Part shown: one piece after another, positions 46,096-51,560 of the stretch
How the letters are laid out: each line of letters begins with the position of its first letter
How positions within the stretch are numbered: the stretch's first letter is position 1
Source of the DNA: Candidatus Thalassospirochaeta sargassi
Lineage (GTDB): Bacteria; Spirochaetota; Spirochaetia; UBA9216
Length of the DNA: 64,000 bases
Direction: 5' to 3'
Assembly: GCA_028532855.1 (NCBI GenBank)
Contig: JAQQAL010000005.1
Span: 1 to 64,000, forward strand
Notes under the pieces: generated by a model
What the model was told of the DNA's origin: nothing
What the model saw: the letters and a program-made list of their open reading frames with translations, nothing else
Database searches by the model: none
Position numbers and translations under genes: made by a program

Positions 46096-48060
46096 ATGTT
46101 AGAAATGAAAAAGGGCATAGACATTCTGGCGGATGTTGGTGGAGTTGCGGATATCACAGCTGCTAAAGCGCTTTTTGAATCAAAGCTCGATAAATCAAAC
46201 CTTGCAAAAATTAACACTATTAAAAATGAGGATGCTCTTTTAAAGATTGCCAACGCAATTGCAATGTGTGAACCTGATGATGTTTTTATTATCGATGATT
46301 CAAGAGAAGATGCCGCTTATGTCAAGCAGAAAAGTATCGAAACAGGCGAGGAAAAGAATCTTTCTATTAAGGATCATACGATTCACTATGATCTTCCCGA
46401 AGATCAGGGGAGACTTGTAAATCAGACCTTTTATATTGTTAATGAAGGCGAAGATATCAGTTCTATAGCAAAGAAAGAACTCAGAGCCGATTCCCACAAG
46501 TATATTAAAGAAAACATGAAGGGGATCATGCACGGACTAACAATGTATGTATCTTTTCTTAATCGAGGTCCCGTTGGTGCTCAGGCTTCAATACCGGCGC
46601 TGATGATCACTTCATCAACCTATGTCCAGACTTCTGGCGACCTTCTTTACAGAAATGTATTCAAGGACTTTGATGCAGAAGCTGAAAGATGCGGAACCTT
46701 TTTCACAAATGTTCACAGTCAGGGTCCCGGCCGTTCAGAGGATGTCCCCAAGGCTAAAATCTACATGGATAGAAGCTGGCAGACATGTTTCTCGACATTC
46801 TGTACCTATGCTGGCAACACACTCCTTCTCAAAAAGGGAAACCATAGATTTGCAGTAGACCGTGCAACATACTATAAGGTTGAAGAAGAGCTTTCAGAGC
46901 ATATGTTTTTAACTGGTATGACAGGGCCCGGGGGGCGTAAGACTTTTTTTGCGGGTGCTGCTCCTTCAGGTTGCGGCAAGACAACAACAGCAATGGTCGG
47001 TACTGATTTTATCGGCGACGACCTTTGTCAGATGTGGATTGATGAAAAGACCGGTTCTGTTCGCGGTATCAACCCTGAAGCAGGCATATTCGGAATTGTT
47101 GCGGATGTAAACTATGAAGGTGATCCGCACCTGATGCCGCATCTAAGAAATGAGGGTGCAACGGTTATTTTTACCAATGTTCTCATTGATGAAACAAATA
47201 ACCCACACTGGACCGGAGACGGCGATCCTGTACCTGCCAGGGGGGTGAACTTTCAGGGTGAATGGTTCCCCGGCAAGAAAGATGCAGACGGAAAAGAAAT
47301 TCCTGTTTCTCATCCGAACGCAAGATGCACAATACTTTGTGACGCAATTGACAACTATAACCCGGTAGCGGCTGAAGATCCAACTGGTGTTCATGTTCAG
47401 GTTGTTACTTATTCAGGTCGTGATTCAGATACAATGCCCCCTGTATGGGTTGCAAAAACAATGGATGAAGGTGTCGCGATTGGTGCTTCAATAGTTTCTG
47501 CCGCAACCGCAACCGAGGTTGGGGTAGCAGGGGTGAGACGTCAGCCATGGGCAAATGCTCCATTTATTCCCGGCGCCCTCGGAGACTACATGGACGCCCA
47601 GTTTAAATTCTTCAACTCAAGCAAGATAACTAAGAAGCCGATAATGGCAGGCCTTAACTACTTCCTTACAGAAGGCTCAAGAGGCGGAGAGGGAAAGAAG
47701 CTCCTCGGTGAAAAGAAAGATGTTAAGGTCTGGCTGGGATGGCTTGAACTGCGGGCTAACGGAGATGTTGACGCAATCGAGACTCCTATTGGATTTATCC
47801 CTCTTTATGAAGATCTCAAAAAGCTTTTTGAAGGCATCAGCAAGCCGTATCCGAGAGACCTCTATGACAGGCAGTTCTCTTTTTACATTGATAACATCGT
47901 TGCCAGACTAGATCTTCAGGATGAGGCATTCAAGAAAGATGAACGTGTTCCTGAGAAGATCTTCAAGATTTACGCAGCTCAGAAGGCTGAACTTCTTGCA
48001 CTTAAAGAGAAATACGGTGCAATTGTTAGCGTTGAGAAGCTTGCTGAAGCAGCTAACTAA
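46096..48060 (+). CDS. pckG: Phosphoenolpyruvate carboxykinase, GTP-type
   Basis: PEPCK interconverts oxaloacetate and PEP. The 654 residues fit the GTP-type family rather than the shorter ATP-type. Motifs include the P-loop APSGCGKTTTAM with the reactive cysteine, the metal/kinase segment FIGDDLCQMW, and PWANAPFIPGALGDYM, with TPIGFIPLYEDL near the C-terminus. In fermenting bacteria it often runs in the carboxylating direction, conserving the phosphate bond as GTP. The divergent carboxyltransferase at 49831 acts at the same metabolic node. Confidence 0.92.
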   Translation: MLEMKKGIDILADVGGVADITAAKALFESKLDKSNLAKINTIKNEDALLKIANAIAMCEPDDVFIIDDSREDAAYVKQKSIETGEEKNLSIKDHTIHYDLPEDQGRLVNQTFYIVNEGEDISSIAKKELRADSHKYIKENMKGIMHGLTMYVSFLNRGPVGAQASIPALMITSSTYVQTSGDLLYRNVFKDFDAEAERCGTFFTNVHSQGPGRSEDVPKAKIYMDRSWQTCFSTFCTYAGNTLLLKKGNHRFAVDRATYYKVEEELSEHMFLTGMTGPGGRKTFFAGAAPSGCGKTTTAMVGTDFIGDDLCQMWIDEKTGSVRGINPEAGIFGIVADVNYEGDPHLMPHLRNEGATVIFTNVLIDETNNPHWTGDGDPVPARGVNFQGEWFPGKKDADGKEIPVSHPNARCTILCDAIDNYNPVAAEDPTGVHVQVVTYSGRDSDTMPPVWVAKTMDEGVAIGASIVSAATATEVGVAGVRRQPWANAPFIPGALGDYMDAQFKFFNSSKITKKPIMAGLNYFLTEGSRGGEGKKLLGEKKDVKVWLGWLELRANGDVDAIETPIGFIPLYEDLKKLFEGISKPYPRDLYDRQFSFYIDNIVARLDLQDEAFKKDERVPEKIFKIYAAQKAELLALKEKYGAIVSVEKLAEAAN

Positions 48061-48097: not shown

Positions 48098-48132
48098 GCC
48101 GCTTCGGAGAAATCTGAAGCGGCAATCTTTAT
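48098..48132 (+). terminator. Terminator after pckG
   Basis: GCCGCTTC (48098-48105) and GAAGCGGC (48116-48123) form a perfect 8-base stem with a 10-base loop, followed by the moderately T-rich AATCTTTATT. Confidence 0.6.
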
Positions 48133-48249: not shown

Positions 48250-49731
48250 ATGAGTAATGAACTCACAGCATACTTCAACAGCTTAAAAAGTAATTCAATA
48301 GACTCCTCTCAGATTTTCCAGATTATAATGATGTTTCAGCAGGAATATCTAAAAGCCTCAGGTGAAGTTCAAGAGCTTGTTCGCTCTTCTTATGATGATT
48401 TGAAGGCTGTGAACCGGAATGCTGAAGAAGTTGTTTCACTTGTCAATAATTATTCTCAGACCATATGTCATAATATCAACTCATCCAAAGAAAATATCAC
48501 GGCTATGACAACATCGGCTGATTCACTACTAAAGCTTGAAGAAGGTTTTAGTGAGCTTCGTGGTATCTTTGAGGCATTGAATACTTCAATCTCGATGATA
48601 GTTGAGCGGATCGGGGTCATAGAAGATGTGTCAGAGCTAACAAATCTCCTTGCCCTTAATGCTGCAATTGAAGCCGCCCGTGCAGGCGAGGCGGGGCGGG
48701 GATTTCAGGTTGTAGCTAAAGAAATACGAAAACTTGCTGACCGCAGCCGCAGTAATACCTCGGAAATTACTACCGTTCTTAATGAACTCACCAGCCGATT
48801 GGGACAGGCGAAAGGAATAATTGGAAGATACGGAGAGATGCAGCAAAATGTTGTGAACAACATGACCAGAACCAGCAGCAGTCTTGGTTCTTCTACTGAT
48901 GAACTTGAAGAGATAAACTCCGAAATAAGTGAGATTAATAACCTGGTTGAAAAACAGGCTGATAATACTTCCTCATTACTTAACTCTCTCGATTCCGTAT
49001 ACCAGAATAGTCAGGAAACCATTGCCAACTCGCCATATATTGAGCAGGCTGTAGAAAAATATACAACACTGATGGAGAATACGGAATCTGATTTCGCGGA
49101 GATTAGTAATCTCCTTGGTGATTCGAAGGATAGAGGTACTGCAATTTCAATCGGCCATGATATAGCATATCCGCCCTGGTGTTATATAAAAGAAGGCCGA
49201 TCAGCTGGAATAAGTATTGAATATATGTCAAATCTGATTGCAGATAAGGGGGCGAAAGCTGAGTTCGCTGGTGGGCAATGGGCTGAAATTTATAAACAGA
49301 TGCTTGATGGAGATCTCGATTTAATTACTAATGTCGGGTGGCCGAATCATTTCTTCGACAATGAACCGGTTATAGCCTCCGCACCATATGAGCAGTTCAG
49401 GATTAGAGTGTTTGCCAGGGATGATAGAAAGCGGGATATCGAAACCTTCAGGGGGCTGAAGATAGGAGTTCAGAAGGGGTCTTTTACCGGAAATGTTGTG
49501 CGAGAGCTCGGTATGGAGCCGGTTGATTTTGAAAATGATATTCAGGGTATGGTTCAGCTGCTATGGAACAATATTGCCGGTGTTGCAACCGAAGAAAGGG
49601 TAGGCAATTACATTTCCGAAAGTCTCTTTCTGGGTGAGATCAAACCGGTGACCGAGGTTATCAGCTCGCTTGATGTCGTATACCTGGCAAGGAAGGGCGA
49701 TGAAAACAGGAAACTGAATGTACTTTTTTAA
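48250..49731 (+). CDS. Soluble chemoreceptor with C-terminal solute-binding domain
   Basis: This 493-residue protein has no signal peptide or transmembrane helix. The N-terminal 290 residues form a methyl-accepting chemotaxis signalling coiled coil with the hairpin tip at about 125-155 ([20 protein letters not shown], then [16 protein letters not shown]), which contacts CheA/CheW. From about residue 298 to the end is a type 3 solute-binding fold ([34 protein letters not shown] and [20 protein letters not shown]), normally found outside the membrane. The order is reversed from usual receptors, where sensing precedes signalling. The protein would sense a cytoplasmic small molecule, such as an amino acid; this is inference. 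A GAGG site precedes the ATG. Confidence 0.88.
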
Positions 49732-49764
49732 AATGACTACGATATAAGATCAGTTCCTTATAAG

Positions 49765-49803
49765 AAAGGCCATTCACATCGGGGTGAATGGCCTTTTTTT
49801 AAA
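49765..49803. terminator. Bidirectional terminator between chemoreceptor and carboxyltransferase genes
   Basis: AAAGGCCATTCAC (49765-49777) pairs perfectly over 13 bases with GTGAATGGCCTTT (49784-49796), with T7 on the plus side and a T-rich flank on the minus side. It separates two convergent genes. Confidence 0.9.
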
Positions 49804-49830: not shown

Positions 49831-51513
49831 TCAACCTATAGTTCCCAGAAGGCTGTTTGCAGCAATCTCGGAACCCGGTGTGACTGTTATGCTCTGAACT
49901 GTTCCGTTCGCGAGCGCAGGAATCTGAATTTCAACCTCGCCTGTCTGGTAAGCTAATACCGGTTCTCCGAATACAACTGCATCTCCGACGTTTTTGTAAA
50001 CAGCTGTGACTTTTCCGGGGATTGCCCCGATAATGTTGTTGTCTGCAACTGTGGGAGCGGCTGTTTCCGCTGCTGCAGCGGCAGGCTGTGCTGAGGGGGT
50101 TTCTTCCTTTTCGGCATTTTTGCGAACCATTGTTTTTGCTTCACCCTTAAGGTAGGTGATTCCCTTTTCCTTGCAGGTCGCCGCAATGAAAATGTTTTCG
50201 TCGCTGACGGGAAGCTCACTGTCTTTAAGCAGAGCTGTTGCTGCAGCAATTCCCTTTTTAGGATCTTCATCGTTGATATCAACAGCCTTGCGGTCAGTAG
50301 GTTCCATTTCCATCTGTTCTTTGCAGAGTTCGATGATTTCCGGATCCGGCTGAACGGGAGTTTTTCCGAAATAGCCTAGAACCATCTTACCATAGCCTTC
50401 GGCGATCCTTTTCCATGGACCGAAGAATACATTATTAAAAGCCTGCTGAAAGTAGAACTGTGAAACGGGGGTAACCGAGGTTCCGAATCCGCCTTTTTCA
50501 ACTACTTCGCCCATTGCAGCAATAACCTCAGGAAATTTCTCAAGACAGTTGTTGTCTCTCATCATCTGGGTGTTTGCTGTAAGCGCCCCGCCGGGCATGG
50601 GTGAGAACGGGATAAGGGGTTCAACCCTCTCTGACTCAGGCGGCTTAAAATAGTCTTTCATGCAGTCCTTGAATACTGATTCAGCCTTGATTACCTTATT
50701 GATATCTATTCCGAGGTCGAAGTCGGTTCCCCGAAGTGCATGCCACATTGTGACTACATCCGGCTGACACGTACCGCCGCTTACCGGTGCAAGTGAAAGG
50801 TCTATCTGATTAGCTCCTGCTTCCAGGGCTGCTTTATAGCCGTCGATGCTGATTCCAGCTGTTTCATGCGAATGAAAAACTATCTTTGTATCCGGGCCTA
50901 GAAGCTTGCGAGCACCCTTTATTGTGTTGAATACCTTGCTCGGTACGGCTGTACCGGAAGCGTCTTTAAAACATACTGAATCGTATGGGATTCCTGCATC
51001 GAGTATGCCCTTTAGGACCTCCATATAGAATTCAGCTGTGTGTGCCCCGCTACATCCGGGAGGAAGCTCCATCAGCGTAACGCATACCTCATGTTTCAAG
51101 CCTGCATCATGAATAGCCTTTCCGCTGTCAATTAGATTGTTAACGTCGTTGAGAGCGTCAAAATTCCGAATTGTTGAAATGCCGTGTTTCTTGAACATTT
51201 TGGCGTGAAGATCAATTATATCTCTCGGCTGAGAATCAAGACCTACAACATTTACACCTCTAGCGAGAGTCTGCAGATCTGCATCCGGTCCGGCGGTTTC
51301 TCTGAATGAGTCCATCATATCAAAGGCATTCTCGTTGCAGTAGAAGAACAGAGACTGGAACCTTGCTCCTCCGCCGGCTTCAAAGTGGTTCATTCCGGCT
51401 TCTACACATGCCTCAACAGCGGGTAAGAAATCAGGCGTGAAAACCCTTGCTCCGTAAGCGGACTGAAATCCGTCTCGGAAAGCGGTTACCATGAAATCTA
51501 CTCGTTTTTTCAT
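49831..51513 (-). CDS. Biotin-dependent carboxyltransferase (OadA/PycB-like) with degenerate biotinyl domain
   Basis: The 560-residue protein has an N-terminal carboxyltransferase TIM barrel: VTAFRDGFQSAYGAR (metal Asp), VCFKDASGTAVP (carbamylated Lys), FHSHETAG (metal His pair) and MPGGALTAN. A PycB-type conserved domain follows, then an Ala/Pro linker (SAQPAAAAAETAAPT) and a C-terminal biotinyl-like domain. That domain lacks the biotin-accepting lysine: the canonical EAMKM position reads QTGEV, with Glu526 exactly 35 residues from the C-terminus. It probably works at the oxaloacetate/pyruvate node with a separate carrier; this is inference. ATG 51513 has an AAGGAAGGG site; a longer frame from 51552 is unlikely. 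Confidence 0.85.
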   Translation of the reverse strand: MKKRVDFMVTAFRDGFQSAYGARVFTPDFLPAVEACVEAGMNHFEAGGGARFQSLFFYCNENAFDMMDSFRETAGPDADLQTLARGVNVVGLDSQPRDIIDLHAKMFKKHGISTIRNFDALNDVNNLIDSGKAIHDAGLKHEVCVTLMELPPGCSGAHTAEFYMEVLKGILDAGIPYDSVCFKDASGTAVPSKVFNTIKGARKLLGPDTKIVFHSHETAGISIDGYKAALEAGANQIDLSLAPVSGGTCQPDVVTMWHALRGTDFDLGIDINKVIKAESVFKDCMKDYFKPPESERVEPLIPFSPMPGGALTANTQMMRDNNCLEKFPEVIAAMGEVVEKGGFGTSVTPVSQFYFQQAFNNVFFGPWKRIAEGYGKMVLGYFGKTPVQPDPEIIELCKEQMEMEPTDRKAVDINDEDPKKGIAAATALLKDSELPVSDENIFIAATCKEKGITYLKGEAKTMVRKNAEKEETPSAQPAAAAAETAAPTVADNNIIGAIPGKVTAVYKNVGDAVVFGEPVLAYQTGEVEIQIPALANGTVQSITVTPGSEIAANSLLGTIG

Positions 51514-51560
51514 ATTCCCTTCCTTATCATCTTTTGTTTCTTTTCTAAACAACAGCCAAT

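Follow-up and report, generated by a model that had tools for sequence, protein, structure and literature searches.

We analyzed a 64,000-nucleotide window of the Candidatus Thalassospirochaeta sargassi genome (positions 1 to 64,000 of contig JAQQAL010000005.1) and focused on a gene that encodes a chemoreceptor in reversed order, in which the signalling rod of a methyl-accepting chemotaxis protein (MCP) comes first and a family 3 solute-binding protein (SBP) domain comes last. The gene and its parts are listed here with the evidence used to place each of them.

48250..49731, plus strand: reversed chemoreceptor gene, ATG start, 493 amino acids plus stop (open reading frame, Pfam, full-length orthologues)
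48253..49119, plus strand: MCP rod, a long helical region assigned as a hairpin by homology, residues ~2-290 (MCPsignal; model helix at 2-290)
48550..48804, plus strand: hairpin-tip region, the CheA/CheW-binding and trimer-contact part of the rod, residues 101-185 (matches the Tsr and Tm1143 tips)
49138..49728, plus strand: two-lobed family 3 SBP domain (SBP_bac_3), residues 297-493 (Pfam, model, Foldseek)

The sequence-only reading of this gene had placed a signalling rod at the front and a solute-binding fold at the end, and both points held. Pfam assigned MCPsignal to residues 105-248 (E = 3e-29, 102.5 bits against a cut-off of 34.6) and SBP_bac_3 to residues 299-411 (E = 3.2e-8, over the curated cut-off), an order that places the sensor domain after the signalling domain, as in chemoreceptors with a C-terminal ligand-binding domain (LBD). 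A model of the SBP domain built from a 32-row family alignment was two-lobed (predicted local distance difference test score, pLDDT, 92.7; predicted template-modelling score, pTM, 0.86), and profile and fold together identify it as a family 3 SBP. The top Foldseek match to this model was 3h7m (E = 6e-16, TM 0.78), the SBP-type sensor of a histidine kinase, followed by amino-acid SBPs.

By Kyte-Doolittle hydropathy, the protein contains neither a transmembrane segment nor a signal peptide, as expected of a soluble cytoplasmic chemoreceptor. Its highest 19-residue mean is 1.24 and lies in the rod, and by the same measure no credible transmembrane segment occurs within the gene in any orthologue. 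The highest orthologue values are 1.85, inside the SBP domain of locus L087, and 1.84, at the first residues of the open frame of locus L085, whose start is uncertain. An SBP that serves transport is exported to the periplasm or the cell surface, whereas this one follows a soluble rod and a non-hydrophobic N-terminus. Just 5' of the ATG lies an in-frame stop codon, which leaves an open frame of 497 codons (RGGS-M...), and a Shine-Dalgarno-like GAGG precedes the ATG; therefore no fused segment is concealed upstream. Together with orthologue hydropathy, these features rule out a hidden N-terminal membrane segment or upstream fusion. With a hydropathy maximum of 1.24 and no upstream extension, the earlier claim that the receptor lacks a membrane segment is borne out.

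The soluble receptor fusion is an essentially Spirochaetota-borne family, not a one-off. Full-length orthologues from sister species are 58-61% identical to the T. sargassi protein, those from a sister genus 47% and those from other Spirochaetia families 27-35%, and this recurrence of the full-length protein indicates that the fusion is more than chance. Among 60 relatives, the receptor was present in each of the four remaining members of the genus (cut by a contig end in one) and in five genomes from other families; of the two further members of its own family, one carries it, in two copies. A scan for the motif HD[IVS][AT]YPPW over 84,980 species, one genome each, yielded 34 confirmed loci, several of them in genomes already among the 60 relatives; the motif is restrictive (HDVSYPPW members exist), and carriers beyond the phylum may therefore occur. 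The records are titled Spirochaeta, Spirochaetes, Spirochaetales or similar, and two are titled only "bacterium" (L071 and L077). In all 34 loci the rod lies upstream of the SBP in the same frame, and the recurrence of the same fusion at more than 30 loci rules out a sequencing or frameshift artefact. Pfam scans of 27 family proteins found MCPsignal in all 27 and SBP_bac_3 in 26. Among 393 genomes sampled evenly across the phylum, nine carriers, including the T. sargassi genome, scored 194-308 bits whereas all other SBPs scored at most 64 bits, so that in this sample the SBP subfamily occurred nowhere but at the end of this receptor. The next-scoring SBPs, where read, were membrane sensor kinases or stand-alone SBPs. 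Searches of plasmid and virus collections returned no relative of the receptor.

In addition to its MCPsignal match, the rod carries the conserved hairpin tip of MCPs, aligned to Tsr and Tm1143. Over ~235 residues it shows no heptad gap relative to most MCPs of the same genome, where 20 further MCP genes exceed the Pfam cut-off; L010 and L020, both from this genome, have one heptad fewer on each side of the tip. The alignment to Tm1143 suggests that the receptor rod is shorter than that of Tm1143. Most membrane MCPs of the genome have the tip sequence EAAHAG, while the fusion has EAARAG, as do L010, L018 and L020; its rod length around the tip equals that of the EAAHAG majority. Potential partners are encoded on two other contigs of the genome: contig 8 carries a cluster with CheA and a CheW-CheRlike protein, the latter a mark of the Spirochaetia F2 system (PMC7666581), and contig 11 carries a second CheA with CheR, CheB and a divergent MCP-like gene, with CheW close by. 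The intact kinase-binding tip and the presence of CheA and CheW genes accord with the view of the sequence-only reading that the protein is a receptor.

Several other proteins of this genome resemble the receptor or its partners in part. The CheW-CheR-like protein of contig 8 (L128:652-2007, minus strand) has the architecture of Treponema denticola CheWS and adjoins CheA. The divergent MCP-like protein of contig 11 (L021:1102-2988, plus strand), beside CheB, CheR and the second CheA, is soluble and ~585 residues long; its degenerate tip, LNALCNAVKAGRGGEGF, is followed by a stretch of ~350 residues that look mostly helical and match nothing in Pfam. The protein has no clear transmembrane segment and is possibly another C-terminal-sensor receptor, or a scaffold. 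On contig 22, L018:1414-2292 (minus strand) encodes a short soluble MCP without a recognised sensor domain (open frame of 293 amino acids), and relatives encode L018-like proteins of 280-305 amino acids that rank among the best matches to the rod outside the fusion. A 508-residue frame on contig 11 (L058:1339-2862, plus strand) has an N-terminal SBP_bac_3 domain and ~230 more residues without a Pfam match.

In usual chemoreceptors the sensor is the most variable part. Mean identity of family members to the T. sargassi protein is 23% in the N-terminal arm of the rod, 52% in the tip, 19% in the C-terminal arm and 42% in the SBP, and the spacing from tip to SBP is near-constant (range 166-179 among the 29 members measured, 15 of which have 176 residues). 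Retention of the tip and the SBP but not of the rod arms, at near-constant spacing, is what one would expect of a lever whose functional ends, tip and pocket, are both fixed. A near-invariant signature of the family, GHDxxYPPW...NxGWPN...Q..S[FY]...T[ED]xxVG, falls within the SBP domain, where its four parts have the following positions (conservation among 32 aligned members).

49156..49179, plus strand: signature 1, HDIAYPPW, residues 303-310; H303, D304, Y307 and W310 invariant in 32 of 32
49330..49347, plus strand: signature 2, NVGWPN, residues 361-366; N361, G363, W364, P365 and N366 invariant in 32 of 32
49471..49485, plus strand: signature 3, QKGSF, residues 408-412; Q408 and S411 invariant, residue 412 always F or Y
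49588..49605, plus strand: signature 4, TEERVG, residues 447-452; T447, V451 and G452 invariant, residue 448 always E or D

Such strict conservation of the cleft beside a fast-changing rod, unlike the pattern of usual chemoreceptors, suggests a common internal signal.

We mapped the pocket by aligning the family profile of these 32 members to AncQR, an alignment whose register near residues 361-366 has a one-residue gap relative to AncQR. The ligand contacts of LAOBP we take to be D11, Y14, F52, S120 and D161, with R77 holding the alpha-carboxylate. The LAOBP/AncQR places of the first five correspond to D304, Y307, W/F344, S411 and E/D448 and are kept in all 32 members, whereas the R77 place, position 370, is occupied by D, A, E, S, K, N, T or Q and in no member (0 of 32) by the Arg that amino-acid-binding family 3 SBPs use for the alpha-carboxylate. 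Basic residues reach a frequency of 80% or more at just three positions, 403, 404 and 487, and no known ligand contact corresponds to any of these. The predicted pocket is thus well kept but altered, being acidic and aromatic and without a carboxylate clamp. That pocket residues are kept in the absence of the R77 Arg argues for a genuine ligand and speaks against canonical binding of an alpha-amino acid, and the missing Arg leaves unsupported the amino-acid part of the earlier suggestion that the receptor senses amino-acid or similar levels.

We propose that the protein is a soluble cytoplasmic chemoreceptor that reads an internal ligand through a C-terminal flytrap, and we assign this explanation as a whole a probability of about 0.75. 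Taken by itself, its core, that the protein is a chemosensory receptor of the cytoplasm and senses through the SBP, is very likely. The N-terminal part would dimerise into the usual helical hairpin, which binds CheW and CheA through its tip within a chemosensory array, and the C-terminal 200 residues would form a Venus flytrap at the end of the rod opposite the tip, the place at which a membrane receptor meets its HAMP domain and the membrane. A cytoplasmic small molecule would close the flytrap on itself, and closure would alter the packing of the dimer's C-terminal helices and thereby CheA activity and, in turn, swimming. We infer that a ligand is bound, how and in which direction the signal travels, and that the C-terminal helices act on CheA, and the same applies to array location: the receptor might sit in a cytoplasmic array or join the membrane array. 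In cytoplasmic arrays, sensor ends are presumed to meet mid-sandwich (PMC3964821). A broader proposal, for which the odds seem to us slightly less than even, is that this is a Spirochaetia-specific receptor class in which the flytrap has moved inside the cell, reads one conserved core metabolite (other than an alpha-amino acid bound canonically) and directs swimming according to the metabolic state. The chances that a single conserved compound is the ligand across all members appear evenly balanced. Judging from the pocket residues, the ligand is probably not an ordinary alpha-amino acid bound canonically; a better guess is that aromatic and acidic side chains hold a cationic or neutral compound, and a quaternary amine, a polyamine or a neutral ring compound can be named as a guess only. 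That the ligand is specifically cationic is possible and somewhat doubtful.

The nearest solved folds are largely amino-acid SBPs, and D304 and the acidic residue 448, at the amine-binding places of LAOBP, are kept together with S411, as would suit a domain that senses an ordinary cytoplasmic amino acid through a rearranged pocket. We consider this unlikely given that the carboxylate-clamping Arg is absent from all 32 members and that none of the three widely basic positions lies at a known ligand contact. The same loss of the canonical Arg could instead mean that the SBP no longer binds a ligand and acts as a structural cap or as a module for protein-protein contacts, for example linking two opposed receptor layers in array sandwiches or docking a transporter or an enzyme. 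A cap, however, needs none of the (near-)invariance of the cleft residues D304, Y307, W364, S411, T447 and acidic 448, which are kept where many others vary, and this explanation strikes us as quite improbable. Hardly credible is a catalytic flytrap like cyclohexadienyl dehydratase, an enzyme that arose from amino-acid SBPs, with a receptor that senses turnover: the second and third best PDB sequence matches are ancestral forms en route to that enzyme, but these ancestors are general SBP3 relatives, with no shared catalytic residue shown.

Several observations weigh against the ligand-reading cytoplasmic receptor that we favor. The full-length model is moderate (pLDDT 80, pTM 0.55) and renders the rod as a single unbroken helix; being a monomer model, it does not represent the dimer. 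The C-terminus of the T. sargassi protein is 10-20 residues short of those of many relatives. We searched the receptor for the Escherichia coli methylation consensus and a relaxed form of it and obtained no match, an absence that does not exclude MCP membership, as many MCPs lack the strict consensus. Because there is no classical methylation site, adaptation may be different or absent, and the receptor may report without the usual adaptation. The EAARAG tip, as opposed to EAAHAG, makes its CheA partner uncertain. Finally, a comparison of gene neighbours across families found none kept beyond the genus, and gene context therefore holds no clue to the ligand; we rejected the neighbourhood of phosphoenolpyruvate (PEP) carboxykinase and carboxylase genes as such a clue since it is limited to the genus.

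Family 3 SBPs are textbook extracellular binding proteins, and here the fold is apparently at work in the cytoplasm, as part of a chemoreceptor whose domains come in reversed order. The sequence-only reading called this architecture unusual, which it is, but not without precedent. Helicobacter pylori TlpD and other CZB cytoplasmic MCPs (PMC12871147, PMC6715182) are likewise soluble, with a rod followed by a C-terminal sensor; their sensor is a zinc-binding helical bundle rather than a two-lobed SBP, and TlpD also has an N-terminal PAS domain. The full-length structure of TlpD has a C-terminal sensor, and only the CZB core and the tip are retained across species (PMC12871147), the same conservation pattern as in the SBP-tailed receptor. 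Ortega and Krell 2020 (PMC7390727) report at least 17 LBD types among C-terminal-LBD chemoreceptors, a subfamily that shares the topology class of the SBP-tailed receptor and that they call poorly characterised. Within this subfamily, the CZB receptors are the ones that have been studied. The SBP_bac_3 fold also acts in signalling rather than transport in the 3h7m histidine kinase sensor, BvgS and RmcA, but in these proteins it is extracytoplasmic, N-terminal to the output and linked to it via a membrane segment, whereas here it is C-terminal and cytoplasmic. Treponema denticola CheWS (CheW-CheRlike) likewise provides the Spirochaetia chemotaxis array with an intracellular small-molecule sensor, for S-adenosylmethionine, but this sensor is CheR-like and resides on the scaffold CheW, not on the receptor (PMC10653840). 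If our proposal is true, the motility systems of Spirochaetia would, with CheWS, take input from at least two internal metabolites. A literature search for MCPsignal with SBP_bac_3, which left most subscription journals outside its reach, found no description or functional study of such a receptor. The isolated SBP domain, ~200 residues long, is probably soluble and is confidently modelled, and the ligand question is directly testable.

The receptor gene lies between two metabolic genes and two hairpins.

46096-48060: PEP carboxykinase-like gene
48098..48123, plus strand: terminator-like hairpin 3' of the upstream PEP carboxykinase gene (folding)
49762..49800, plus strand: strong hairpin with a T-run directly 3' of the receptor gene (fold -23.5 kcal/mol, z -7.4)
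49831-51552: carboxylase/decarboxylase-like gene with a biotinyl-type tail

The pair of flanking genes, PEP carboxykinase-like and carboxylase/decarboxylase-like with its biotinyl-type tail, is found around the receptor within the genus; in other families the neighbours differ and include an isopropylmalate dehydrogenase-like gene, an mraZ/rsmH cluster and others. The hairpin at 49762..49800 could be a transcription end for both the receptor gene and the convergent carboxylase gene, and the terminator-like hairpins on both sides of the receptor gene suggest that it is transcribed alone, as a monocistronic unit.
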